A stretch of DNA of 27,079 nt from a virus, in IMG/VR virus record IMGVR_UViG_3300009506_000164, positions 1 to 27,079 of that record. One strand, given 5' to 3'. Below, in pieces: positions 918-22,978 of this stretch. The number at the start of each line of letters is the position of its first letter. The first letter of the stretch is position 1. Below the pieces are notes generated by a model. The model did no database searches, was not told where the DNA came from, and saw only the letters and a list, made by a program, of their open reading frames with translations. A program made the translations under genes and the position numbers.

Positions 918-3602
918 TTAGAACGCTGGAATATAGATTACACCCGTCGCTGTTGTGATCCCAGCGATACTGAATACGGTTGCTTGTACCTTATAGTAGC
1001 GAGAAGGCGAGATTGACAGGAACTGTAAATGCAGATCTGTCAGTGCTGACGTAAAGTAATCGGATTCGCTGTTCAGCGTTGTGTAAGTTATACCATCTTC
1101 ACTCAGCTGGATACCTCTGTTTGTATCGCTGTGTTCGTTTGCATCTAGTGGCCACCACGTTGAACCATCCGAGGAAGTTGCAAGACAACTATACTCAATG
1201 TATGTGTAATCACCAACTACGTTCAAATTCAAACTACTTGGTATTGTAGCACCGACAGGTGAACCAATGTAAGGTGGAGAACCTGCTGATGCACCAATGA
1301 AGTTTGCCGAAATAGTTCCAGTAGGAACATTAGGTCCAACAGCACCACGCAACGTGATAGAGACATCGTCAAAGCCCGCGATTAATCCAGGAGGAGAACC
1401 AACAACAGGAGTGTAGATACGGATGATGTTCCCACGTGAAACATTCCACAGTGGTTCAGCGGTGTGTGTTGGCGAACCTGCTGGAACACCTTCTGTCAGT
1501 GCAGTTCCCAAACCCATGTCAAATGCCGTTTCATTTCGTGAGATTGCCGACTGGTAGAATCGGAACGTACCAATTCGCTGTTCTGTTGTACCGTCATCAA
1601 GAGTGACAGCAAAATCTCGATCTACTGTAGGTGGACGTGTGCGGCTTTGTGCCTGATGCCCATAACTGAACAACACAAAGTCACGAGGTGCAACATATTT
1701 GAACATTATTGAGTCAGAGCCAACATCAGCAAAAGATTGAGCGGCAAAATCGTATGGACGAGGAAGCTCAAATGTTGGAACCGAAGGAGTAGGAACACTC
1801 TGCGCCTGCCATGTGTTGCCAACCTTTGTTAGAACTTGTCCATCCACAGGAAGTGGAGAACCAACTAAATCAACATCACTTAGATCACCGAGATTAGCTG
1901 CCCAGTCAGTAACAACTCCAACAGGGCTGCCCTGCGTGCGAGTTGTGATGTTTCTACCACCTGTGATTGTGAGAGTGTCGCTCGCTGTGGCAGCTGTAAC
2001 AGCACCAGTATCAGCTGCGACTGTTTTGAATACTTCCTGCAAGTACACTGCATCTGGAGATGGCTCCCAAATCGAACCATTGTAACGTAGAACATCACCA
2101 ACTGCAAGAGCTGGTGATCCGGTTGTGGTGACATCCGCCATGTCATTTAAAACATAGTTCAGAATCGTTTTCACTTCTGTTGGTGTCTTGGCTGTAAATG
2201 CACCAGCACTTCCAACAATAAATTGATTGGTTGCGGCTGATAGTGCAGCTATCTGATCAAGGTGAATGTTCCAAGCTTCTACCCCTGAAGTAGAACCTGG
2301 TGCAGCGCTCTTCCACGTTGTAGATGCACCACTGAAATAGAGAACATGTCCTGCGGATGGTGCTAATGCCGAATCGACATCTTCTAGGTTGGGCAAGTAT
2401 GCTCCAAACTCAACACCAGATGCACCTGTTGTAACTCGTAGAATTTTGGAACCACTGCTTGCATAGTCGGCAGGAGTATCACTCAAGGATATAAATGTTT
2501 GTCCAGCAGCAACCGAAAGAATCAACTCCGAAGGACGAAGAAGAATTGTTGTTTCGTCAATAGCAACCGCTATTGGCTTTTGCCCTGGGTCCGGTGAGTA
2601 CCCATCTGCTTCTTCCGATGTCAAAACACCTGGCTGATCTTTGTCAACATAAATTAATTCATTGACCGTTGTCCACGCCCAATTAGGATTATTGACAACA
2701 CCACTTGTTGTAACCTGAACAAGCTCGCCTGATACACCTGCCTCTTGTTCGAGAATACCAACGATAGAGCTATCTTGTACAGCTACTGTCAGGGGAAGAA
2801 CTTGATGCAGGCCAGAGAAATAAACCGCTTGATATGCTGCGATTGGCTGCTGTGCGATACCATCAAGAACAATCGTCTCCACACGAGAACGAGCTGTTGA
2901 CTGCAAACCTGTATAGAAGAGATCTTCCGTTGTAAAAAATGTTGTTGCATTGCTAGCAAGTGTTCGTTTGAGAACACTTCCATCATGATCAAAGACAAGT
3001 GCACCAACGCGATACGAAGCCGTTGGTAGACCAACAGTTGTACCAACGAAGGAAGGCGTGTTTATTGAAAGACTTGTGAAACCACCGCCAAAGGTATACT
3101 TAGCGACAAAGCAACGTATCTTTTCTGCAAATGCACCATAAGTTGGTGGAATGCCGCTGAACGTCCATTCCTTCATTATCTTGTTGGCAGTGTCGTACCA
3201 ATGATAACCAGTTGGACGAATTGATGCTGCGGTGCTTGCTACAGTTCCAGGATCAGGAGCGTATTTGGTCCAGCCATAAGAGGTCAAGCCTGTGGAACGA
3301 TCAAGATCAACGTACAAATAGTAATCATTGCTGCTTGGACCGGATCCACCACCCTCCGTGAATGGAGCGTTGTTGTTTGCTGCTGTGCCATATCCCCAAG
3401 CGTTGATATCACCACTCTGGCGCAGCGTCAATAGGTAGTTCGTATCACGGTGAGCAAAAGCAAGTTGGAACATCTGCTCAATAGGGGCATGAAGATCAAC
3501 CTTCGAATTGGTGGCAACTGCAACAAGGAAGTTTTGCGTGCCTGTTGGTGTGCCGGTGTCCGTAGAGTAAGTTACTACGCCCTGTGAGAATGTCAGAATC
3601 AT
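918..3602 (-). CDS. Large tail-fibre or adhesin-like virion protein, 894 residues
   Basis: A long, low-charge protein rich in G, S, T, V and P with few lysines, typical of phage fibre and adhesin proteins. The middle part holds three diverged copies of a fibre repeat of the form 'L-x-D-x-x-D-V ... G-x-V-L-x-Y/T ... W', seen in PNLEDVDSALAPSAGHVLYF, in NDMADV to the W of GSIWEPS, and in GDLSDVDL to the W of NTWQAQ. Tripeptide GSP occurs seven times in loops. The C-terminal third looks like beta-rich modules ending in VIYIPAF. The ATG at 3602 is preceded by GGGGAA, and a GATAAATA late box lies 38 bases upstream. The neighbour 5' to it is another fibre-like gene. It probably forms part of the distal tail or a receptor-binding appendage; which T4 fibre it replaces cannot be told. 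Confidence 0.75.
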   Translation of the reverse strand: MILTFSQGVVTYSTDTGTPTGTQNFLVAVATNSKVDLHAPIEQMFQLAFAHRDTNYLLTLRQSGDINAWGYGTAANNNAPFTEGGGSGPSSNDYYLYVDLDRSTGLTSYGWTKYAPDPGTVASTAASIRPTGYHWYDTANKIMKEWTFSGIPPTYGAFAEKIRCFVAKYTFGGGFTSLSINTPSFVGTTVGLPTASYRVGALVFDHDGSVLKRTLASNATTFFTTEDLFYTGLQSTARSRVETIVLDGIAQQPIAAYQAVYFSGLHQVLPLTVAVQDSSIVGILEQEAGVSGELVQVTTSGVVNNPNWAWTTVNELIYVDKDQPGVLTSEEADGYSPDPGQKPIAVAIDETTILLRPSELILSVAAGQTFISLSDTPADYASSGSKILRVTTGASGVEFGAYLPNLEDVDSALAPSAGHVLYFSGASTTWKSAAPGSTSGVEAWNIHLDQIAALSAATNQFIVGSAGAFTAKTPTEVKTILNYVLNDMADVTTTGSPALAVGDVLRYNGSIWEPSPDAVYLQEVFKTVAADTGAVTAATASDTLTITGGRNITTRTQGSPVGVVTDWAANLGDLSDVDLVGSPLPVDGQVLTKVGNTWQAQSVPTPSVPTFELPRPYDFAAQSFADVGSDSIMFKYVAPRDFVLFSYGHQAQSRTRPPTVDRDFAVTLDDGTTEQRIGTFRFYQSAISRNETAFDMGLGTALTEGVPAGSPTHTAEPLWNVSRGNIIRIYTPVVGSPPGLIAGFDDVSITLRGAVGPNVPTGTISANFIGASAGSPPYIGSPVGATIPSSLNLNVVGDYTYIEYSCLATSSDGSTWWPLDANEHSDTNRGIQLSEDGITYTTLNSESDYFTSALTDLHLQFLSISPSRYYKVQATVFSIAGITTATGVIYIPAF

Positions 3603-3685: not shown

Positions 3686-5200
3686 TTACGCAACTATTGC
3701 CCAGTCAGAAACTCGACGCCAATTGACACCATCTGTCACCACTGCAACGCCAGCAAGTGGGCTACCATCCTGTCCGTCGCTCGTATACGCAATTCGACCA
3801 GCTGGTGCTGCCGCTGGAAGCGTTGCAACGGTGTATGTTGGCAGCGTGAGCGGACCTGTTGGGACACGTGTTCCATCCGTCAGCAGGTATTGTGGGTGAT
3901 CATCGTCGGACAATCCGGACAGGTTGCCGTGATCTGTTGCCGCACTGCCAATCGTTGATGAGAACACCTGTGTATCTCGCCAGTCAATGTAACTGCTACC
4001 AGTATCTGTTGCTCTGAAGCGTACTAGTGTTGTATTTGTGTATAGGGTTCTTGTTTGGCCAATGAATGTTGCAATTGGTACAAACTCCTGAAATGGAAGT
4101 CCGGCCAACGAATTCAGCTCTGAGTTTGCTGCAGCTTGTGCCGCTGTTATGTTGGCATATTCGGCAATACCCTGCAGTGCAATAACTGGGTGCCTCATGT
4201 CATTGGTTGCCAATATATGGAAAAGGAAGAAACTGTTATCTGATAGCTCTGTCAAGGACCAAACACCACCCGATAGCTGGTTGTAAGGTGGAAGACCATT
4301 TACTGCACCAGTCCAGTTAACACCATCACTATAGATGAATGGGAAGTTAGTTGGCGTAGATTTGTACCACACTGCACCTGCACCCAAACGATAGAACACA
4401 GGGAGCTGTGCAATTGGTGTTAGGTCTTGTAGCAGGTCATAGCTATTGACACCACTGCCAATATCATAGATGTGATGTGGAATATCCTCATCACGAATGA
4501 ATCCATTACCAATATCAATCTGGACATCTGCATCTGTTGGTGTACCTGGGTCAGCTGTGAATGTTCCACCTGGAGCCAAGCCAGAAATATACTGTGTACC
4601 AAAGGAAAGGTGGAAGTGAGCGTGTGTAACACCATCCATAACCATACCATGACGTTCATCACCAAAATATACCGCTGTCTGGGTATCGGTGTTCCAGTAA
4701 AGAACTGCCACGTAAACGTTGTCAACAAACAGTAATGTTGCATCGAATACTGTGGTGTACTGAATTGTATTGTTTACGTCAATATAAAGGAAGTACTCAC
4801 CTGTTACATCTGGAATTGTTAGTGAGATTGGAACATAGCTCTCATACCGAATACCATGAATGTAGTAGTCGAAGTATGGAGGAGATCCAGACAGGGATGA
4901 TCCTATTCTTGGTGCAATTGTGAACTCTCGTGTTGCAGGGCTACCATCATCAAATGTCATGTACGACTGATCACGATCAAGATAACCTGTGTACGCCTCA
5001 CCATCTCTCCATATGTTGAATATTGGAACATTCATAAAATCACGCACGTTGTTGATTGGATGCTTGTAAGTGCGAGTTCCATCACACACCGCCATCGCAT
5101 GCGTGAGATCAAGAGGTGCTGGACTTCCAGCAGCATCAGGCAGGTGACATATGTCTGCGTAGCTTGCTGGTGTTGATTTTGTGAGGACTAGGTTTGCCAT
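3686..5200 (-). CDS. Tail-fibre-like virion protein, 504 residues
   Basis: Begins MANLVLTKST at the ATG 5200 with AAAGGT upstream. The protein is rich in Y, T, G and D. The middle carries a segment around DERHGMVMDGVTHAHFHLS, a type I associate with fibre-like virion proteins of large phages, followed by a dense D/G stretch. Near the C-terminus is the fibre collar motif DHGNLSGLSDDDHPQYLL, a well-known element in many phage tail fibres, followed by a short terminal domain ending GVNWRRVSDWAIVA. GSP tripeptides occur four times. It is separated by 83 bases from the 894-residue fibre gene, and both probably belong to one appendage. Expression probably comes from the GATAAATA box at 5256-5249. 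A fibre role is well supported by the collar motif; its exact position in the virion is inference. Confidence 0.8.
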   Translation of the reverse strand: MANLVLTKSTPASYADICHLPDAAGSPAPLDLTHAMAVCDGTRTYKHPINNVRDFMNVPIFNIWRDGEAYTGYLDRDQSYMTFDDGSPATREFTIAPRIGSSLSGSPPYFDYYIHGIRYESYVPISLTIPDVTGEYFLYIDVNNTIQYTTVFDATLLFVDNVYVAVLYWNTDTQTAVYFGDERHGMVMDGVTHAHFHLSFGTQYISGLAPGGTFTADPGTPTDADVQIDIGNGFIRDEDIPHHIYDIGSGVNSYDLLQDLTPIAQLPVFYRLGAGAVWYKSTPTNFPFIYSDGVNWTGAVNGLPPYNQLSGGVWSLTELSDNSFFLFHILATNDMRHPVIALQGIAEYANITAAQAAANSELNSLAGLPFQEFVPIATFIGQTRTLYTNTTLVRFRATDTGSSYIDWRDTQVFSSTIGSAATDHGNLSGLSDDDHPQYLLTDGTRVPTGPLTLPTYTVATLPAAAPAGRIAYTSDGQDGSPLAGVAVVTDGVNWRRVSDWAIVA

Positions 5201-7664: not shown

Positions 7665-8864
7665 TTAAGCCTTCTTTAGGTTGTTGTCAAAGACCCAAAT
7701 GTCGTCAACCTCACCAAACTGCGGCAAGTGAACCGACATGTAGTGGTTGCGAACAGCGGCAAGAGGAACAGTCTTGTCGTCGCGAGACGTCTGACGATCC
7801 AACACCGTCTGCAATGCGATAGGCATCAAAACCGCAACTACGTAGTAGCCGCGATTACGAGCCTGATCAATGAAGAAACGGCGGCGCTTTCCTGACAAGT
7901 TCGTGTTATCAACAACCAGATCGTTTCCTTCCTTTACCAGCTCAATGAAGCGCTGGTTTGCCTTCTGATTAAACTCCTTGTCCTCGATCTGACGTTCATA
8001 CGCGAGGCGATACATCTCCTTTGCAGTCATCTGATCGTACGCCAACTTATGATACTCTGCATCCGAGACATACCAATCCAACCTCAACGCATCCCAAGAG
8101 AATACATTCAGTGTTTCACCAGCAGACTCAGCCTTGTCCACCAATCCGTAAATCAGTGTAGACTTGCCAGTTCCCGACGCACCAATTGGCATATAGAGGA
8201 TAGGCTGTCCCAAATTACGACCAGTGTGTCGCTCAGAGTTGACGATACCCTCGACCAAGTCGTTGAAGCCTTCGATCCACGAATGAACCTTCTGACGCTT
8301 CTCAACGTAGTCATCACTCATTCGACCGTAGGTATCTGCCAACAACATGTTGGTGAAAGCACGAGGACCATTCTCAGGAAACAGCTCAACAGCAGTCAGC
8401 GCAAGGTTGTGTAGCTTCTCAGCCTTCTTAACGCCCCAAGGCAAATGCTTCTCGATGATCCAACCAACACGGTAGATATCAAAGGCAGTGAACTCAAAGC
8501 GATCAGCCAACATTGCGAAGTTTGTGGCAGCCCAGTTTTCCCACATACGAGCGGAAATCTGCTCGTGACCGCCAAACGACTTGTAGTGACCACGCTCAGG
8601 CTTGTACTTGATGCCGTTCTTCTCACAGGCAGAAGGCTTTCCAACGTCATGGAAAGCGCAGGAAAACGCTCCAAGCAGGTCCTCATAAGACCACTCGTCC
8701 TTTGCGAAGTGGACATACTGAGACACGACCATATCCGTGTGAGTGCCGATATTTCGCTCACGGTGCCAAGGAGATTCCTCAGCAACGACAGACATATCAC
8801 GGTACAATTCCGTGGTCTGGAACTCGTTGAAATACCAGTAAATAAAACGCGCCTTGAAATCCAT
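7665..8864 (-). CDS. HD-Pnk: HD phosphohydrolase fused to 5'-OH polynucleotide kinase, 399 residues
   Basis: I start at ATG 8864 (MDFKARF) because AGAGGT lies 7 bases upstream; an in-frame upstream start at 8900 would overlap the promoter. The N-terminal half is an HD domain: H42, the H72-D73 doublet in AFHDVGK, H100 in GGHEQ, H140 and D177 in LLADTYGR are the likely metal ligands. The C-terminal half is a P-loop kinase: Walker A GASGTGKST (228-236), D258 and R261 in SWDALR matching the T4 Pnkp D35/R38 pair, DNTNL (319-323), and an arginine-bearing lid before a VP-x(4)-VR segment as in T4 Pnkp. This order matches the HD-Pnk end-healing enzymes described from Runella, which remove 2',3'-phosphates and phosphorylate 5'-OH ends. 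A likely job is repair of cleaved host tRNA or other RNA. No ligase is in this window. It has its own promoter and terminator. Confidence 0.85.
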   Translation of the reverse strand: MDFKARFIYWYFNEFQTTELYRDMSVVAEESPWHRERNIGTHTDMVVSQYVHFAKDEWSYEDLLGAFSCAFHDVGKPSACEKNGIKYKPERGHYKSFGGHEQISARMWENWAATNFAMLADRFEFTAFDIYRVGWIIEKHLPWGVKKAEKLHNLALTAVELFPENGPRAFTNMLLADTYGRMSDDYVEKRQKVHSWIEGFNDLVEGIVNSERHTGRNLGQPILYMPIGASGTGKSTLIYGLVDKAESAGETLNVFSWDALRLDWYVSDAEYHKLAYDQMTAKEMYRLAYERQIEDKEFNQKANQRFIELVKEGNDLVVDNTNLSGKRRRFFIDQARNRGYYVVAVLMPIALQTVLDRQTSRDDKTVPLAAVRNHYMSVHLPQFGEVDDIWVFDNNLKKA

Positions 8865-8890
8865 GAAAATTACCTCTGTGTTTGATTGTG

Positions 8891-8919
8891 AGTATCCCAC
8901 ACTTTGGGGTGAAAATCAA
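8891..8919 (-). promoter_or_regulatory. Sigma70-like promoter for HD-Pnk with dyad in spacer
   Basis: TTGATT (8919-8914), a 17-base spacer TTCACCCCAAAGTGTGG, then GATACT (8896-8891). The spacer begins and ends like that of the promoter at 25170-25142 (TTCACCC at the upstream end, GTGG at the downstream end), and both contain an imperfect or perfect CACCC/GGGTG dyad. It lies between the gp17 stop and the HD-Pnk start, 26 bases before the ATG. Confidence 0.6.
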
Positions 8920-14212: not shown

Positions 14213-16429
14213 TTACCCAATATCAGCGCCAGTAGCAACGATACGAATTGGTACGTAGATGAATTCAGCAGCTCTGACAGGCTTGAGAGCAATGTCGATG
14301 TACATTTCATTGCGGTCAATACGGTCAGGTGTGTTGTTTGTTTCATCACAAATTGTTGCAAAGTCATACAAACCACGCTTGACAACGATGTCACTCAAGA
14401 AGGAGTCAACAACTGCCTTCAAGTTGTCACGTGTCAACTGATCGTTTGGCTGGAACACGAAGCTTAGAGTATTCTTACGAATCTGGCGACGTACATAAGC
14501 CATCAAACGGGTTACGTTGATACGGTCAAGTGCGCTTGCATCTGGTGCAGAGGTCTTCTGACCCCAGACCAAGATACCACGACCTGGGAAGAACACGATT
14601 GGGTTAACATTGACAAAGTAACGATATAGATCATCACGCTGTCCCTGATCAACATAAGTTGGAACAAATGTTGTTGGTAGTCCAAGAGTACCAGAAACAT
14701 AACCCAACTGATCAACACCGGTCACGAGACCACGACGGGTACCAGCTGGTGCAAACCATACCTCAGAAACACTGTCGCTGTATGCCCATGTCTTCAGTGC
14801 AGTACCAGATGGAGCAACACAGATTGTGTTACCATCAACGTTGGTTGCCAACTGCCATGGGTAGTAGTACGAAATCAAGTTTGATGTTGCACGTTCTGTT
14901 GTCTGTGCCCAAGCAACAGCTTCGGAAGGTGTTAGGTTGGATGGAACATCACCAATAACGACCGCTTCCTGCTTAACTGCTGTACTTGCTGCCAAGTCAA
15001 CCATCTCGTTGTTTGTTTCCCAGTAGCCTGGGCAAACAATGATGTTGTATTCAAAGTTCTCAGAACGAATGTCCGAGTTCCCAACAATTTCAGCGTTCAG
15101 TGCTGTAACGATTGCTGTGCGACGAGCTGCATCATTTGCACCAAGACCTGTTAGGTTAAAGAACTCCTGTGTGTACTTGTAATCGTCTGCAGCAGCGATC
15201 AGATCATCGGAAGCGTCTGCAGCAGTCCACTCTTCAGGGAATGCAGGGTTAGAACCAGCTCCTGGGAATGTACCATCAGATCCTGGACCCGCAAGATTTG
15301 GACCAGCATCGTTCGAACCTGTACCGTCGCCTGCACGACCAGCTATACCAACATATGGAGGTGGAACTGCTGGCTGGTCAAAGCCATTAGGGAAGACATC
15401 ATAGCCACCTGTGCTGGATGAGTCATCCTCAAATGTTGCTTCAACGTTAGCAAATGAGTACAGTGGATAAACAACTTCGGTCATTGCCGTGTTGAGCAGT
15501 GATAGATATTCAGAAGCATCAACTGTTTCTTTGTAACCATCAACACCAGCGGTTGTTGTGATTGTGTAACCAACAGGGCTACCAGTAATCAGTGTTGCAA
15601 AGAAACCACTGGTTGTCATAACAACAGAAGTGCTGGAACCAAGATCAGTACCACCACCATTCACCGCGGAGCTCTGGATCTTAATTGCACCAGCAACCAA
15701 AGAGGCTGTTGCTGCTGAACCTAGCTGTGTGTTAAGGTCGTTGAGCAGAGATTCAACACTATGAGCATCGCCACCTGGTGAACCAGCCTGGTTTGGAGAG
15801 CCTGGTAGAGGCGAACCTGTTGGCTGACCTAGTGTTAGTGTGATAGGTGTACCATCAACTGTGACAACTGCTGTATCACCATTAAAGGCATTCAGCACTG
15901 TCGAATTTGTAAGTGTAGCCGAATAGGACAGAGTAACATATGCATTTGTCCAAGGATCCCCTGGGAACAACTGATTTGTTAGATTCTGTTCATTGATGTA
16001 GGTGTTAACAAGGTTCTCCAGGGCAAAGGCAGATTCTGTGATCTTCTTGTCCCACAAAGAACGGATGTTGTCGATGTTGTCATCAAGGTTAACATTTGCG
16101 CGAACAACATATGCAAGTGAACCCTGGTTTAGGTACTGCTGTAGAGCAGCAAGACCATACTCATTTCGAGCATCACCATCATGACGATTGCCAGAAGAGT
16201 CCGTAAGGAAATTTGGAACACCATAAAGTTCCAAAGCAGTCTTCTGGGATGTAACAGTACGGACAACACCACTTTCGTATGTTCCGGCGGCTGGTGTTAC
16301 TCCATCCTGTTGAACCTTTTCATCGGCGGTTGCAATAAAGAACAATGGTACCGTAGAGGAGCCTGCTGGAATAAAGAAGCTCTCATCAGTAACCGTTACG
16401 CTCACGCCTGGACTAACTAGTGTTGCCAT
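14213..16429 (-). CDS. 18: Tail sheath protein, gp18-like, with inserted variable domain
   Basis: Contractile sheath subunit. The N-terminal MATLVSPGVSVTVTDES with IPAGSSTVPLFFIATA is the classic sheath start, and the C-terminal part (RLMAYVRRQIRKNTLSFVFQPND, LSDIVVKRGLYDF, RIDRNEMYIDIALKPVRAAEFIYVPIRI) is the conserved sheath core that interlocks neighbours. Length is 738 against 659 in T4. Residues about 165-400 are an insertion: a beta domain (TAVVTVDGTPITLTL, SVESLLNDLNTQLG, AGAIKIQSS) with GSP tripeptides at 205, 210, 216 and 283, then a G/P/D-rich linker (340-400). Such surface domains vary between T4-like phages. A similar beta pattern occurs twice in the gp13 extension. Exact late promoter 55 bases upstream. 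Confidence 0.95.
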   Translation of the reverse strand: MATLVSPGVSVTVTDESFFIPAGSSTVPLFFIATADEKVQQDGVTPAAGTYESGVVRTVTSQKTALELYGVPNFLTDSSGNRHDGDARNEYGLAALQQYLNQGSLAYVVRANVNLDDNIDNIRSLWDKKITESAFALENLVNTYINEQNLTNQLFPGDPWTNAYVTLSYSATLTNSTVLNAFNGDTAVVTVDGTPITLTLGQPTGSPLPGSPNQAGSPGGDAHSVESLLNDLNTQLGSAATASLVAGAIKIQSSAVNGGGTDLGSSTSVVMTTSGFFATLITGSPVGYTITTTAGVDGYKETVDASEYLSLLNTAMTEVVYPLYSFANVEATFEDDSSSTGGYDVFPNGFDQPAVPPPYVGIAGRAGDGTGSNDAGPNLAGPGSDGTFPGAGSNPAFPEEWTAADASDDLIAAADDYKYTQEFFNLTGLGANDAARRTAIVTALNAEIVGNSDIRSENFEYNIIVCPGYWETNNEMVDLAASTAVKQEAVVIGDVPSNLTPSEAVAWAQTTERATSNLISYYYPWQLATNVDGNTICVAPSGTALKTWAYSDSVSEVWFAPAGTRRGLVTGVDQLGYVSGTLGLPTTFVPTYVDQGQRDDLYRYFVNVNPIVFFPGRGILVWGQKTSAPDASALDRINVTRLMAYVRRQIRKNTLSFVFQPNDQLTRDNLKAVVDSFLSDIVVKRGLYDFATICDETNNTPDRIDRNEMYIDIALKPVRAAEFIYVPIRIVATGADIG

Positions 16430-17282: not shown

Positions 17283-18971
17283 TTATTTGGCAATGTCATC
17301 TGCAGGGGTTCGTGTAGCACTTCCAAGGAACTCCTGTAGAATTGGTTTTGTTGTTTTTGCTAATGCACGCTTATCAGACTCCATGAAGATCCAACGTGCT
17401 TTTGCATTTGAGTATCTAAACAGGCGTGGTGGTATGTTTGCATCCGTTCCTGTATATGTCAAACGATGGAAATCACCATCCGAAGGACTGGTTGGCATTG
17501 TATCACCTTCTGTGTATGGTAAGCCATTTGGTGGCAAGCCATCTTCCACATACAGCTGCCGTGGATTTAGACCAATGTTGCGCAAACCAGCTGCGGCACC
17601 TTTCTGTTGCACCTCGGCAGCTGCCAACTGTTCTTCACTAAATTGGGTGATATCAGCTGGATCTCGTCCTCGCTCAGGTAGATGGCTTTGGTCGGTGGCC
17701 GTTTCTTCAATCGACTGTGAAATGTCGGAGTAATCCTGAATAACAGGGTGTTGTCCGTCGTCCATACCGTGAGTCCCATCAAAGTTCTGGAAGAAGCCTG
17801 TACCATCCTCATATCCTTCCAGACCACCAAATATGTCTGCTGTCTCCTGTGTTGCAAGCATTGGGGCGACAATGATACGTTGCAATAGGGGTTGCCATCC
17901 TGGAGTGTATCCATCTGTCGACCACGCAACATCTGTCACTTCCATATACTTCTTTACAGCTTGAAGGTTGGGAGTATACTGCTGCTCACTTGGCATTTCG
18001 ATAATGTCACCAATAACCAATGGACGTCCTAGCTTTCGGACCGATGCGCTGAAACTGATAACCAAATAGAATGTTTGTGAAGGTAGCTCAATACCAAAAC
18101 GAGCCATGTCTGATTGTGTATCAATCAAATCATAATACGCCTTCACGCGAACGCTTTCATCTGCATAATCACGGTCACGATTTTCGTGCCAGATCTCGTC
18201 TTCGATATCATCAATGGTCGTTAAATCATAGTCAAACATCTCCAGTGCCTGAACAGCCCACACATCTCCTGTTCCACCATTAAACTCCAATGGACGTAGT
18301 CTCCAATAACGCATTGGAACAGATCCATTGAACATGACTGTGTTTAAACAATCATCATCTGAAAGAGTTAGAATTGCAGCACCATACCACTTTTGTCCAT
18401 CATTTGATCGTTCAACACGAACCTTTGTTGCTCGGTTCTGTGCCAAAGTCCCCTGCTTGATTTTAATTGAAGAGATGTTGTGTTTGATTGCGGTATCAAC
18501 ACTGTAACGAACACGATCATTCTCAAGCTTAATTTCACCAAAGTCATAACCAATGTAAGCAGAGGCTATTACCCCTGTTCCTTTTTGAGCTGATCGCCAT
18601 TCAGTCACATACGTTGTGAAAGCCTGCTCTTTTGGAAAGCCTGCGGTGTCACCACCAGAAAGTGCTACACCATTATCCGTCAAGTCAATAAGTTGTCCCT
18701 GTTCGTGAACACCAAGCAGCTTGAAAACATTAATCTCTGCACCCGCAATACCTAGTATCTCATCAAGAATATCATCCATGAAACAATTGTCAGGAGTTTT
18801 GGTAAGATCCCATGGGCTGCAATCCTTGCTTGTTGTTGGACAAGGAACTGGAAAACCGGTTGTCTGGTTGCAACCATTCTGATTTCCGGTGTCGGGCGGA
18901 GTGCCACCGATAGGATTTCCATCCTTATCATACTCATCACCACATACTGTTTGGTTCTTGCAATCCACCAT
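17283..18971 (-). CDS. 14: Neck protein, gp14-like, carrying a discoidin-like (F5/8 type C) domain
   Basis: 562 residues, about twice T4 gp14 (256). Residues 1-65 are cysteine-rich (C4, C10, C34, C44, C51, C63). Residues about 78-248 look like an F5/8 type C domain: YIGYDFGEIKLEND, ISSIKIKQG, ATKVRVERSNDGQKWYGA, MRYWRLRPLEFNGG and a closing VQALEMFDYD. Residues about 250-400 match gp14: VKAYYDLIDTQSDMARFGIE, LGRPLVIGDIIEMP, YMEVTDVAWSTDGYTPGWQP and ADIFGGLEGYEDGTGFF. The C-terminal residues 490-535 resemble one copy of the W/Y-rich repeats of gp13 (DGDFHRL ... RLFRYSNAKARWIF). gp14 and gp13 form the head-tail connector, so the extra domain probably faces outward and may bind glycans. ATG overlaps the cupin stop by one base (TAATG). 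Confidence 0.85.
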   Translation of the reverse strand: MVDCKNQTVCGDEYDKDGNPIGGTPPDTGNQNGCNQTTGFPVPCPTTSKDCSPWDLTKTPDNCFMDDILDEILGIAGAEINVFKLLGVHEQGQLIDLTDNGVALSGGDTAGFPKEQAFTTYVTEWRSAQKGTGVIASAYIGYDFGEIKLENDRVRYSVDTAIKHNISSIKIKQGTLAQNRATKVRVERSNDGQKWYGAAILTLSDDDCLNTVMFNGSVPMRYWRLRPLEFNGGTGDVWAVQALEMFDYDLTTIDDIEDEIWHENRDRDYADESVRVKAYYDLIDTQSDMARFGIELPSQTFYLVISFSASVRKLGRPLVIGDIIEMPSEQQYTPNLQAVKKYMEVTDVAWSTDGYTPGWQPLLQRIIVAPMLATQETADIFGGLEGYEDGTGFFQNFDGTHGMDDGQHPVIQDYSDISQSIEETATDQSHLPERGRDPADITQFSEEQLAAAEVQQKGAAAGLRNIGLNPRQLYVEDGLPPNGLPYTEGDTMPTSPSDGDFHRLTYTGTDANIPPRLFRYSNAKARWIFMESDKRALAKTTKPILQEFLGSATRTPADDIAK

Positions 18972-19426
18972 TACATTATGTCCGTGTCACCATCATAGTG
19001 CTCTTCGTGTTCCTCTGCATCCTTTTTAGTCTTACGAACAGTGTTCTTCATGTGGTTTGGTGGTGAGTAAATTGTGTAGACCTTCAAGTCTTCCTCACCA
19101 TCATTAACTAGATTGTGTTCTGTACCTTGTGGAACAACAAATGCAAATCCATCACTTATCTGTTCTTCCTTACCATTTAGGATAACTTTACCTTTACCTT
19201 TCTCAACACGAATGAACTGGTCAATAGCCTCATGCACTTCCATGCCAATATCACCACCTGGTGGGATGCTCATTAGAACCACCTGTAGGTTTCGAGAGGT
19301 GAAAAGAACTCGGCGATAGTCATTGTTCTTGAGTGTGTCCTTCTCGATATCAGTGACAAAGTGATCATGTCCCTTCTCACCTTTAATTTCTTCCATTTCT
19401 TTTTCAAAAAGGTCTTGGAGATGCAT
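18971..19426 (-). CDS. Small cupin protein embedded in the neck operon, 151 residues
   Basis: A single-domain cupin of the small mannose-6-phosphate-isomerase-like type. Motif 1 is GMEVHEAIDQFIRVEKGKG (residues 61-79) with H65 and Q70, and motif 2 is GFAFVVPQGTEHNLVN (93-108) with H104 as likely metal ligand; the first motif has only one of the usual two histidines. VLMSIPPGGDI leads into motif 1 as usual. The first 35 residues are an extra acidic helix (HLQDLFEKEMEEIKGEKG) and the C-terminus is charged, ending in EEHYDGDTDIM. It overlaps the gene before it by 23 bases and gp14 by one base, so it is made together with connector proteins. Role unknown: enzyme, sugar binder or virion component are all possible. 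Confidence 0.88.
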   Translation of the reverse strand: MHLQDLFEKEMEEIKGEKGHDHFVTDIEKDTLKNNDYRRVLFTSRNLQVVLMSIPPGGDIGMEVHEAIDQFIRVEKGKGKVILNGKEEQISDGFAFVVPQGTEHNLVNDGEEDLKVYTIYSPPNHMKNTVRKTKKDAEEHEEHYDGDTDIM

Positions 19427-19661
19427 TGTCTATTCCTCTTTCTAAATCACGAAGTGCTTTTGACTTCTTCTTTTTCTTTTCCTTTCGCTCACACCAAGTC
19501 CTACCTTTGCAGAACTTGTTTGGCAGTGGTGCATTTACATCACCATAGTGCTGTATGGAGGCTGCTGGAGTTGGTCGAGAAGCATCAGGTCCAACCACAG
19601 GAACACCTCCACCTGCAGCAATACCACCAACGTCTTCTTTTATTATCTCACTTAATTTCAT
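19404..19661 (-). CDS. Unrecognised 85-residue protein coupled to gp13 and cupin
   Basis: The ATG at 19661 shares a base with the gp13 stop (TAATG) and the 3' end overlaps the cupin by 23 bases, so coupling strongly supports that it is a real gene. The N-terminus MKLSEIIKEDVGGIAAGG has a short amphipathic segment followed by I-K-E-D, which fits the (L/I)-x-E cleavage site of T4 prohead protease. The middle is rich in P, A, G and V. Two cysteines (CKGRTWCERK) precede a strongly basic stretch of lysines (KEKKKKKSKALRDLE). Its size, basic charge and N-terminus are reminiscent of small internal or DNA-associated head proteins. I do not recognise a family. Confidence 0.7.
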   Translation of the reverse strand: MKLSEIIKEDVGGIAAGGGVPVVGPDASRPTPAASIQHYGDVNAPLPNKFCKGRTWCERKEKKKKKSKALRDLERGIDNASPRPF

Positions 19662-22600
19662 TAGCCTATGATGAACTCACAGTTCATTCCATATTCTTCA
19701 ACATTATTGACAACATAGTTATCAAGTTCAGCCTGTAGCTTCTCAAATTCATCATTTGCTTCCTGAGCAAGATCAGATGCATTCAAAGATACACCACCAC
19801 CTGCACCTGGTAGGGAAGCAAACTTACCACGAATTTGTGATAGAATTCTCTTCGAGTGTGCCAAGGCATATCTCTCGATCCAACGACCCGTGAACCTATC
19901 TGTCAAGAGATCCTGTTCTGTTCGTTCCACTGCAACATCCATAAGGATTGTTTCTGGAGTTGAGAAATACTGGTGTAGCGTTAGAGACCTAGCAGACTCA
20001 TTCCAGTTAAATGTGATGCGAGATGCAAACAAGTGTTCCAATGTTTCTATGTACTGGCTAACAATATGGAAACTCAATAGATCAAATGTTCCCATGTTGT
20101 ATAGGTGCTGCAAAACAACCTGTCCAAACACACCTGAACCATGTGCACTTGTCATGAAGGCTGAAGTAATGCGGAAGCAACCCATGACCTGAACAATCTT
20201 GTCATGTCCATACTGACCATCTGCCAAAGAATAACCATTGCCTTCACTATCTGTCTCAGCGGTTGGTTTTGTTAGCTTGTAAATCTGCTTGCCTGCATTC
20301 ACATATAGTTTCATGAAACCACGACGGTATGCAGCCGAGCTGTTTCGACGCAGTTCCTGAATAGCAATACGAATTGCTTCATCGAGCTGGCCTTTGGTTA
20401 GCTCAACCTGAACAACTGGATGTCCAAGCTGCTTACGAATATCGTCTGCTAATCGACGGTGCTCATCTTCTGTCCCATCAGTACCAATTCCTTCCTGTTC
20501 ATATGTTGGCAGGCAAGATAGACCATCTGTACCAACAAACATGCAGCTGAATGTTGGTTGCTGGTTAAGGCTAAAGAAGATTTCATCATCGGCAATGCTA
20601 CGACCCACATCAACATTGGAACCACTACCCGTGGAGGTTGCCGTAAAGACGATTGTGCCATCTGTTGACACAGTTGCAGTTGCAAGTGGAGGGGATTCTA
20701 CCCAAGTTGTGCCATTCCACATCATCAATGTACTTGTTGTGGTATCATACCACAAGTCACCAGTATCTGGTTTTGGTGAAACGGTGCTGAAGATAACACT
20801 CATCCACGCTGTACCATTCCACATCCACAAAGCGTTGTTTGTTGTGTCATACCAGAATGTGCCAGATGGAATTGTTGTGCTTGATGGGTCAACATCAGAG
20901 TCAACAGGATCAAATTCTACCCAAGCTACTCCACTCCACTCATACCACTTGGAGGTTGAGGTATCATACCAGATATCACTAACTGCTGGTGCTGTTGGAT
21001 CAGTTGGGGAGGAGATGAATGTGACTTCTATCCACTGTGAACCATCCCAGGACGAAAGAGTAGTGCCATCGTACCAAACAACACCTATAGCTAGTGAGAC
21101 TGGTGCTGTTGGATCAGTTGTACTTTGGATAAAGTGTTCTACCTGAACCCATGCAGATGCAACCGAGTCCCAGATGTATAAGATGTCAGTGTCAGAGTTC
21201 CACCACAGGTCACCAGAAGCAACAATAGATGGATCTGTATCATATACGATTGCACACTGAGAAACCCAAGCTGTGTTTCCAGCATTACGAATGAATAGTT
21301 CTGCATCACTGTTTATCCAGTACTGGTTTGCAACTGGAGAAGTTGGCTCTGTACCAATAGTTAAAGGATAACTAACAACAGTAGCTTCTGTTGTGCTATA
21401 GTTGGTTAGTGCTGTGAAGAGAGTTCCACCTGCTGTGATAACAGGCTCAGATTCATCTGCACTTACCAAGCGAATTCGTGTAGAAGGCTGGGTGCCAACA
21501 AAACTAATTGTTGCAAGACCTGCAAGCTGTGAGTTAATTGAGGCAAACACCTTATCAAAGCGACCAGATGTTGCATCGCAAACATTAACAACGATGTCAA
21601 GCACATTGCCTGCAATCGTAATCTGTTCTGTGTACTCACCATCAGCCAAAGCAAGGTCACTGTTCGAGTGTCCTGCTGATAGTGTGAAATCAATGTAGCT
21701 ACGACCAACAGGATTCCAAATATCAGCAACAGGTGTGTCATAAATCCAAAGAAGGTTGTCACCATCATCAAACCAGTATGTACCCGTTGGCAGGGCAGTA
21801 GGATCATCACTCCAATAAAGAGCATCTGTCTCATCCCAGACACAGGTTACTTCATTCCAGTGACGAAGCAGTAGATCATCAGGATTGTACCAATAGTAAC
21901 CAGCATCTGCAGTTACACCATCTGAAGGATCCGTTGTCTGGTCATAAAGAGTTAGTTGATCCCAGATATTACCATTCCACTGGAATGCAGCTGAAGGAGA
22001 ACCAGAACGGTACCAATAGTCAGAGGAAGTTAGTCCTGATTCTAATGTTGGGTCTTTTGCATAGCGAACGATGCTGGCACTTGAAACTAGAACCCAAGCA
22101 AGTCCATCCCACTGGTATAGTTCGCTCGTGGAAGTCTTGTACCAATAATCACCCAGTGCAAGTGCTGTTGGATCTGTTGGCTCCTGGATAGCATCAACTT
22201 CCGTAAACGCATAACCATCCCACTGGTATAGAATTTCAGTGGTGGTATTGTAATAGTAGGCATTTGTATTAGGTGGAACTGGACTCTGTGATGCTGAAAC
22301 AAGCAAGCCTATCTGTACGTTGATGGCATCAACCAAATCACCATACGTTTGAGCATTTGATCCATTGATTGTGATGGTATATTGTACATCATCAATCTGC
22401 ATGTCCATTGCATAGGTTGCACCAAGTGATAAACCAGTACCATCTGTTGCCGTGATTGCATTTGGAAAACTGATTGTAACGTAGCCACTTGAATCATCTG
22501 TCTTTGTCAAGCATGGATCGAGCGAATACGCATGTGAGCCCTGTGGACAGTAACGGTACTGACAATCGACAGCATATCCTGTGACATAGTAAGGAGTGTT

Positions 22601-22978
22601 CTCATCTAAACCTGTGATATCAACATAGGTTGTGAGGTCTGTACCTGTACCCTTTTTAACGCACTCATAAAAAGCACCGACGACAAGAGCCGTACCGATA
22701 GTATCACCGGCATGCAAATCGCGATCACCTGTAGGATCACCAGTGTATATTGTTTCATTGGTTGGCTTGACAGTATCCTTGTCCGCACCGACATTATCGA
22801 GTGTGATTACGATACCACCGTACGCCTGAGTCTCTGCTGTACAACCATCGGGAGGAGTTGGAATATTCCACGAGATGCGTGCAGTTGAAGCGCTCGTACG
22901 ATCCAATTGTACTGTGATCTCAGCAGCTTCTTTACAAAGCTTGCCAGGTGCGTCAGCGTAAGCGTCAAAGGTTCCCAT
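19661..22978 (-). CDS. 13: Neck protein gp13 fused to a very long repeat-rich N-terminal extension, 1105 residues
   Basis: T4 gp13 has 309 residues; only residues about 838-1105 correspond (RRLADDIRKQLGHPVVQVEL, DEAIRIAIQELRRN, RWIERYALAHSKRILSQIRGK, EANDEFEKLQAELDNYV and the ending MNCEFIIG, parallel to T4 PPFGILVG). Residues 18-140 resemble a fibronectin-III type domain (VQLDRTSASTARISWNIP ... LDENTPYYVTGYAV). Then come about eleven copies of a 30-45 residue unit with consensus (G)D-x-W-Y-x-T-x-T-x-x-L-Y-x-W-x-G-x-x-W-V, at residues 240-425 and 550-760, split by a beta domain at 430-530 that resembles the gp18 insert. The extension likely decorates the neck as whiskers or an adhesin. AGGAG 8 bases before the ATG, CATAAATA 27 bases upstream. 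Confidence 0.9.
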   Translation of the reverse strand: MGTFDAYADAPGKLCKEAAEITVQLDRTSASTARISWNIPTPPDGCTAETQAYGGIVITLDNVGADKDTVKPTNETIYTGDPTGDRDLHAGDTIGTALVVGAFYECVKKGTGTDLTTYVDITGLDENTPYYVTGYAVDCQYRYCPQGSHAYSLDPCLTKTDDSSGYVTISFPNAITATDGTGLSLGATYAMDMQIDDVQYTITINGSNAQTYGDLVDAINVQIGLLVSASQSPVPPNTNAYYYNTTTEILYQWDGYAFTEVDAIQEPTDPTALALGDYWYKTSTSELYQWDGLAWVLVSSASIVRYAKDPTLESGLTSSDYWYRSGSPSAAFQWNGNIWDQLTLYDQTTDPSDGVTADAGYYWYNPDDLLLRHWNEVTCVWDETDALYWSDDPTALPTGTYWFDDGDNLLWIYDTPVADIWNPVGRSYIDFTLSAGHSNSDLALADGEYTEQITIAGNVLDIVVNVCDATSGRFDKVFASINSQLAGLATISFVGTQPSTRIRLVSADESEPVITAGGTLFTALTNYSTTEATVVSYPLTIGTEPTSPVANQYWINSDAELFIRNAGNTAWVSQCAIVYDTDPSIVASGDLWWNSDTDILYIWDSVASAWVQVEHFIQSTTDPTAPVSLAIGVVWYDGTTLSSWDGSQWIEVTFISSPTDPTAPAVSDIWYDTSTSKWYEWSGVAWVEFDPVDSDVDPSSTTIPSGTFWYDTTNNALWMWNGTAWMSVIFSTVSPKPDTGDLWYDTTTSTLMMWNGTTWVESPPLATATVSTDGTIVFTATSTGSGSNVDVGRSIADDEIFFSLNQQPTFSCMFVGTDGLSCLPTYEQEGIGTDGTEDEHRRLADDIRKQLGHPVVQVELTKGQLDEAIRIAIQELRRNSSAAYRRGFMKLYVNAGKQIYKLTKPTAETDSEGNGYSLADGQYGHDKIVQVMGCFRITSAFMTSAHGSGVFGQVVLQHLYNMGTFDLLSFHIVSQYIETLEHLFASRITFNWNESARSLTLHQYFSTPETILMDVAVERTEQDLLTDRFTGRWIERYALAHSKRILSQIRGKFASLPGAGGGVSLNASDLAQEANDEFEKLQAELDNYVVNNVEEYGMNCEFIIG
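20986..21120. repeat. 21-base direct repeat inside the gp13 extension
   Basis: The 21 bases at 20986-21006 recur exactly at 21100-21120, start to start 114 bases (38 codons). They encode the same part of two adjacent W/Y repeats of the gp13 extension. An exact DNA match of this length within diverged protein repeats suggests recent duplication or gene conversion of repeat units. Confidence 0.7.

Follow-up and report, generated by a model that had tools for sequence, protein, structure and literature searches.

Head-tail adaptors of the T4 gp13 type are usually compact, and the locus described here raises the question of why such an adaptor carries a module three times its own size, most of it unannotated. 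The window, a virus record of 27,079 bases that is probably a fragment, contains a minus-strand frame of 1105 residues, which starts with an ATG at 22978 and ends with a stop at 19661. Read leftward, the order is the major capsid protein, several other genes, the fused gp13, an 85-residue ORF, a cupin, a gp14-like protein, gp15, the tail sheath (gp18) and a tube-like ORF, assigned to the tail tube by eye. The features discussed below are:

19661–22978, minus strand: whole gene, gp13-type neck adaptor with N-terminal extension, 1105 aa (frame, profile, sequence match, fused homologues)
22508–22954, minus strand: fibronectin-III-like (FN3-like) domain, residues 9–157 (AF2 model, VIA Z of about 9 to many FN3 domains)
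22289–22489, minus strand: split β-domain, first half, residues 164–230, model positions 1–68 (profile)
21689–22276, minus strand: W/Y units U0–U4, residues 235–430 (unit profile)
21356–21688, minus strand: inserted β-domain, residues 431–541 (weakly like the split β-domain, E 0.06)
21100–21120, plus strand: 21-base exact repeat, copy 2, TDPTAP codons of U7
20986–21006, plus strand: 21-base exact repeat, copy 1, TDPTAP codons of U8
20678–21355, minus strand: W/Y units U5–U10, residues 542–767 (unit profile)
20564–20683, minus strand: split β-domain, second half, residues 766–805 (profile; weak alone in the window, strong in the relatives L011, L012 and L014)
20474–20563, minus strand: conserved linker PTYEQEGIGTDG, residues 806–835 (alignment, conservation)
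19664–20473, minus strand: gp13 adaptor domain, residues 836–1105 (profile, sequence, fold)
17283–18971, minus strand: gp14-like neck protein, 562 aa, with a discoidin-like (F5/8 type C) domain (profile matches)

The initial annotation had recognized gp13 in the last 270 residues, without mention of the minus strand, and profile, sequence and fold comparisons all confirm the assignment. The phrog_211 profile (head-tail adaptor Ad2) matches the whole protein with E=3e-179, and the solved T4 gp13 sequences in the PDB match it with E=3e-6. The gp13 domain superposes onto T4 gp13 (9lu6) with a VIA Z of 14.0 and an rmsd of 3.7 (114 aligned), and Foldseek matches it to 9mkb with E=1e-9. Residue 10 of T4 gp13 aligns to residue 841, which gives an extension of ~831 residues. 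The gene order also follows that of T4, with 13, small ORF, cupin, 14-like, 15 and 18 in the window and 13-14-15 in T4.

The gp14-like protein is, besides gp13, a second enlarged neck protein of the lineage. It measures 524–562 aa in the window and in its homologues from L005, L001 and L002, and the compact relatives align with its second half only. Its discoidin-like domain scores 29.3 bits in XacN1, above the Pfam cut-off. A W/Y unit in this protein, suspected by eye, was dropped since the unit profile found none. The cupin (Cupin_2, 61 bits; phrog_13536) lies at 18971–19426 on the minus strand, between gp13 and the gp14-like gene. Elsewhere in the window, a 411-residue protein (7665–8900, minus strand) ends in a kinase-type P-loop domain (AAA_33) and, judged by eye, begins with an HD-type part. 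The window's proteins contain the tripeptide GSP 17 times, compared to 2.4 times expected from shuffles, with varied codons. Nearly all copies lie in a pair of fibre-like ORFs (918–3602 and 3686–5200) and in the tail sheath (14213–16429), and the tripeptide is possibly a modification or turn motif.

Is the long frame genuine? Full-length homologues were identified by tblastn in Xanthomonas phage XacN1 (977 aa) and in Stenotrophomonas phages RAS14 and CM1 (976 aa), where they are recorded as hypothetical or without annotation, and IMG/VR holds dozens more, some on contigs of 290–364 kb. To avoid bias, the survey used the gp13 part alone as bait, and W/Y units and gp13 share one frame in all 63 of the 63 metagenomic relatives whose upstream frame is closed. 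The few relatives without units have a frame cut by the contig end, and one relative (L019) shows an apparent frame break. A missed stop, an assembly join and separate genes in relatives, each named in the initial annotation as a way in which the fusion could fail, were looked for, and the fusion stands in XacN1, RAS14, CM1 and the 63 relatives. That two genes were joined by a sequencing or assembly artefact is a negligible prospect, since isolates and dozens of independent contigs carry the same fusion; nothing was found in its favour.

The fusion of array and gp13 is kept across one jumbo-phage lineage. More distant relatives (PA5oct, SCTP-2, Hallingskeid and pEa_SNUABM_47) have a compact gp13 of 250–262 aa, and in the gp13 tree 84 extended sequences lie apart from 4 compact ones on a long branch, the node support being ambiguous after rooting. 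A search of genome contigs found no member of the family in host genomes. In a survey of a new lineage of aquatic jumbo phages, gp13 is listed as a core gene with no domain detail (PMC12619734), and our literature search found no paper that describes the fusion. The extension has been kept across a diverse lineage, comprising XacN1, RAS14 and dozens of metagenomic contigs of up to ~360 kb. The fused gp13 is a marker of this lineage and would show how a recruited appendage can join the connector chain.

From the N-terminus, the protein consists of the FN3-like domain, the first half of a β-domain, an array of 11 W/Y units, the second half of the β-domain, the conserved linker and gp13. An FN3-like domain had been proposed for the extension, and the model of residues 9–157 indeed adopts the β-sandwich fold, with a Z of about 9 and an rmsd of 2–4 to FN3 domains. 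The Pfam fn3 profile scores below its cut-off of 25 bits (16.9 bits for the XacN1 and 14.1 bits for the RAS14 homologue), and we therefore restrict the claim to an FN3-like fold.

The split β-domain was traced with a 95-position profile trained only on non-gp13 proteins of these phages and on an intact insert of L009, whose protein carries a clear copy elsewhere (97 bits). In the gp13 fusions, profile positions 1–62 are found just before the array and positions 64–95 just after it. When the array is removed in silico, a single contiguous match results, with 61.1 instead of 40.6 bits for L011, 54.1 instead of 26.1 bits for L012 and 45.3 instead of 26.4 bits for L014; the maxima of controls with a shuffled C-terminal half were 46.3, 30.2 and 32.8 bits, respectively. 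For the majority of sequences in one half of the family, the gain exceeds the shuffled controls. It is small in the window (37.5 compared to 31.9 bits, control maximum 35.4), and the profile does not detect the C-terminal half in XacN1, RAS14 and L034-type members. Since removal of the array restores one contiguous match, the array appears to be nested in one loop of the split domain, an arrangement well supported by profile matches in part of the family and extended to the rest by alignment. As this loop belongs to a domain located between the FN3-like domain and gp13, the former is probably not a distal tip.

The initial annotation had also noted a β-domain between two blocks of units. Such a domain is present at residues 431–541, but it is an insert shared only with the nearest relatives (L006, L045 and L046), while the split domain flanks the array. 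The insert has the same order of elements as the split domain, despite the weak match (E 0.06), and is possibly an intact copy related to it. The domain that is split in the fusion also occurs in other proteins of these phages. The tail sheath of the window (14213–16429, minus strand) contains an inserted copy at about residues 165–256 (52 bits; this copy was in the training set), and ORFs near gp13 in two relatives (L013:9037-11535 and L005:2430-4040) consist of 3–5 tandem copies of it. These tandem ORFs have no Pfam match, and the L013 protein matched no phage record. We considered naming the split domain after the flagellin IN domain; the resemblance found no sequence support in Pfam or the PDB, and the name was abandoned.

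The W/Y array had been estimated at about eleven units in two blocks. The unit profile finds exactly eleven, of ~38 residues each, arranged as five (residues 235–430) and six (residues 542–767). Eleven units are also present in 53 of the 63 relatives, and several of the other counts are underestimates due to weak units. True exceptions are L115/L165, with 9 units, and L147 and L166, with 15, so that strict fixation at 11 is ruled out. The extra units of L147 and L166 are similar and lie near the start of the array; this sublineage has undergone a real expansion. Comparison of copy number across relatives gives a mode of 11, the number in the window.

The initial annotation had suggested, from an exact 21-base repeat at 20986 and 21100, that duplication of units is ongoing. 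The repeat itself is real. It is the longest exact repeat of the gene, and a length of 21 is reached in 1 of 300 synonymous shuffles, slightly exceeding what synonymous codon choice predicts. It lies inside a conserved (T/P)TDPTAP motif, its flanks have diverged, and the same TDPTAP codons are used in other units and in relatives. The best match of a unit in another phage is the unit at its own position in 67% of cases, compared to 9% by chance, which indicates that the array is old. Positional orthology and the shared TDPTAP codons, together with the modal number of 11, lead us to reject a recent duplication in the window.

Related units are not confined to gp13. They occur in other large ORFs of the genomes with fused gp13 (in XacN1, a frame of 3315 residues and several smaller ones), and three are found in a protein of cyanophage S-N03 annotated as a tail fibre. 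A sequence search found no relatives of the unit among solved structures.

The AF2 model of the full window protein has a mean pLDDT of 68, which is moderate. The L011 protein, which lacks the insert, was modeled from 66 sequences with a mean pLDDT of 86 and about 90–95 in the array, each unit being built of three to four short strands. The overall pTM of 0.56 leaves uncertain how the domains are placed relative to each other. Matches in a viral fold library were to giant-virus collagen-like proteins and to neck proteins, and Foldseek searches of the PDB returned β-propeller proteins at low TM and mixed probability. The unit number of 9–15 and the existence of single units elsewhere argue against an obligatory propeller ring. 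Mean pairwise identity is 0.49 for the FN3-like domain, 0.43 for the linker, 0.52 for gp13 and 0.36–0.37 for the array, whose near-invariant columns are mostly tryptophan. Judged from the alignments, this pattern fits a base that would touch conserved parts of the phage and an array that is conserved in its core and varies at its surface.

The T4 gp13 dodecamer surrounds a channel of 44–56 Å and holds twelve fibritin fibres, of which six serve as whiskers and six form the collar (PMC12270204). Twelve extensions of 830 residues could not fit a channel of this type, so the extension would be located outside the neck and, by analogy with T4, likely projects from it. We consider it rather probable that a T4 gp13-type adaptor has here become its own neck appendage, a covalently built-in collar or arm outside the channel. 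About twelve copies may ring the neck, as in T4. The FN3-like domain and the β-domain would form a conserved base docking on neighbouring subunits, the capsid or the portal vertex, and the array, leaving and re-entering through the same loop, could be a semi-rigid arm or collar of β-beads. The extension would then bulk and guard the neck, and perhaps touch folded-up tail fibres or the cell surface, achieving as a built-in part what T4 gp13 obtains by binding separate fibritin whiskers. Two points stand against a collar or arm. According to the XacN1 paper, neither microscopy nor homology revealed tail fibres, and its microscopy text mentions no neck appendage; and the 9–15 units of a few relatives indicate that 11 is not obligatory.

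A narrower and overlapping form of this explanation is a purely mechanical collar, reinforcing the junction of capsid, neck and tail without contact to fibres or cells. The FN3-like domain and linker are conserved like gp13, and the Milano collar and the neck decoration proteins of phage 812 have been proposed to stabilize the neck (PMC10491603, PMC12886913). However, sister jumbo phages of similar size manage without the extension, and the lower conservation of the array suggests that it is exposed; we regard the restricted form as somewhat unlikely.

The array could instead be a secondary adhesin, whose exposed aromatic residues would bind glycans of the host or the environment and keep the phage on the cell. 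Its units are rich in W and Y and have relatives in the annotated tail fibre of the cyanophage, the neighbouring gp14-like protein contains a discoidin-like domain of a sugar-binding superfamily, and the D domain of the Milano collar resembles glycan-binding proteins (PMC10491603). But the tryptophans hardly vary from unit to unit or from phage to phage, as befits a hydrophobic core; unit counts are largely constant, with no sign of hypervariable positions; and a neck-fibre module of phage A-1(L) with a carbohydrate-binding fold did not bind the host (PMC10966104). The profile search that had been proposed for the repeat returned no carbohydrate-binding family (Pfam, E up to 10). Glycan binding through an aromatic ladder, as first suggested, is in our view unlikely as the function of the array.

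Finally, the extension might serve as an assembly module, cut off or flexible and not persisting in virions, and the text of the XacN1 paper makes no proteomic statement on this protein. The conserved linker with no evident protease motif, the strong conservation of the FN3-like domain and the entry of T4 gp13 after head packaging make this very improbable.

We return to the built-in appendage and its possible origin. The wac gene of T4 stops 31 bases short of gene 13, and the extension thus occupies the place of the whisker gene. Cyanophage S-BM1 has a gene for a YadA-type structural protein of 1816 aa (L185:1-1461) directly upstream of a compact gp13, in the position of T4 wac, which makes this position a plausible source of neck appendages. 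Fibritin_C (PF07921), which covers only the C-terminal fibritin domain, gave no match in the records of XacN1, RAS14 and four large relatives (T4 control, E=2e-34), and no Pfam family, Fibritin_C included, matched the fused protein. The fibritin coiled coil is likewise lacking, as the array is modeled solely as short strands at a pLDDT of about 90–95. That this lineage exchanged a recruited whisker for a built-in one, with twelve arms, an 11-unit array looping from the split domain and a base held by the FN3-like domain, seems to us evenly balanced. If true, this would be a neck architecture absent from the literature found, in which copy number is genetically fixed at one arm per adaptor subunit.

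The closest known system is T4 gp13 (phrog_211, Ad2) itself, similar in sequence and fold over the C-terminal 270 residues and in the gene order 13-14-15. However, T4 gp13, with 309 aa, is free of any extension and recruits separate fibritin, whereas the gp13 of the window has ~831 residues fused in front. Fibritin (wac) shares with the extension the gene position directly before gp13 and, as we infer, the role of neck appendage; it is a trimeric coiled coil with a foldon encoded by a separate gene, whereas the extension is predicted to be all-β, is fused and has no Fibritin_C match. The W/Y units (GDxWYDTxxxxLYxWDGxAWV) resemble those of phage tail fibres and giant-virus collagen-like proteins in unit sequence (S-N03) and local fold, but these fibre-type proteins have one to few units, compared to a run of 11 on a neck adaptor here. 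The neck fibres of Anabaena phage A-1(L) (PMC10966104) and the collar of Milano (PMC10491603), the latter β-rich, are also non-fibritin neck appendages. Like the decoration proteins of phage 812 (PMC12886913), they are separate proteins attached to the neck, whereas in the present lineage the comparable part belongs to the adaptor chain.
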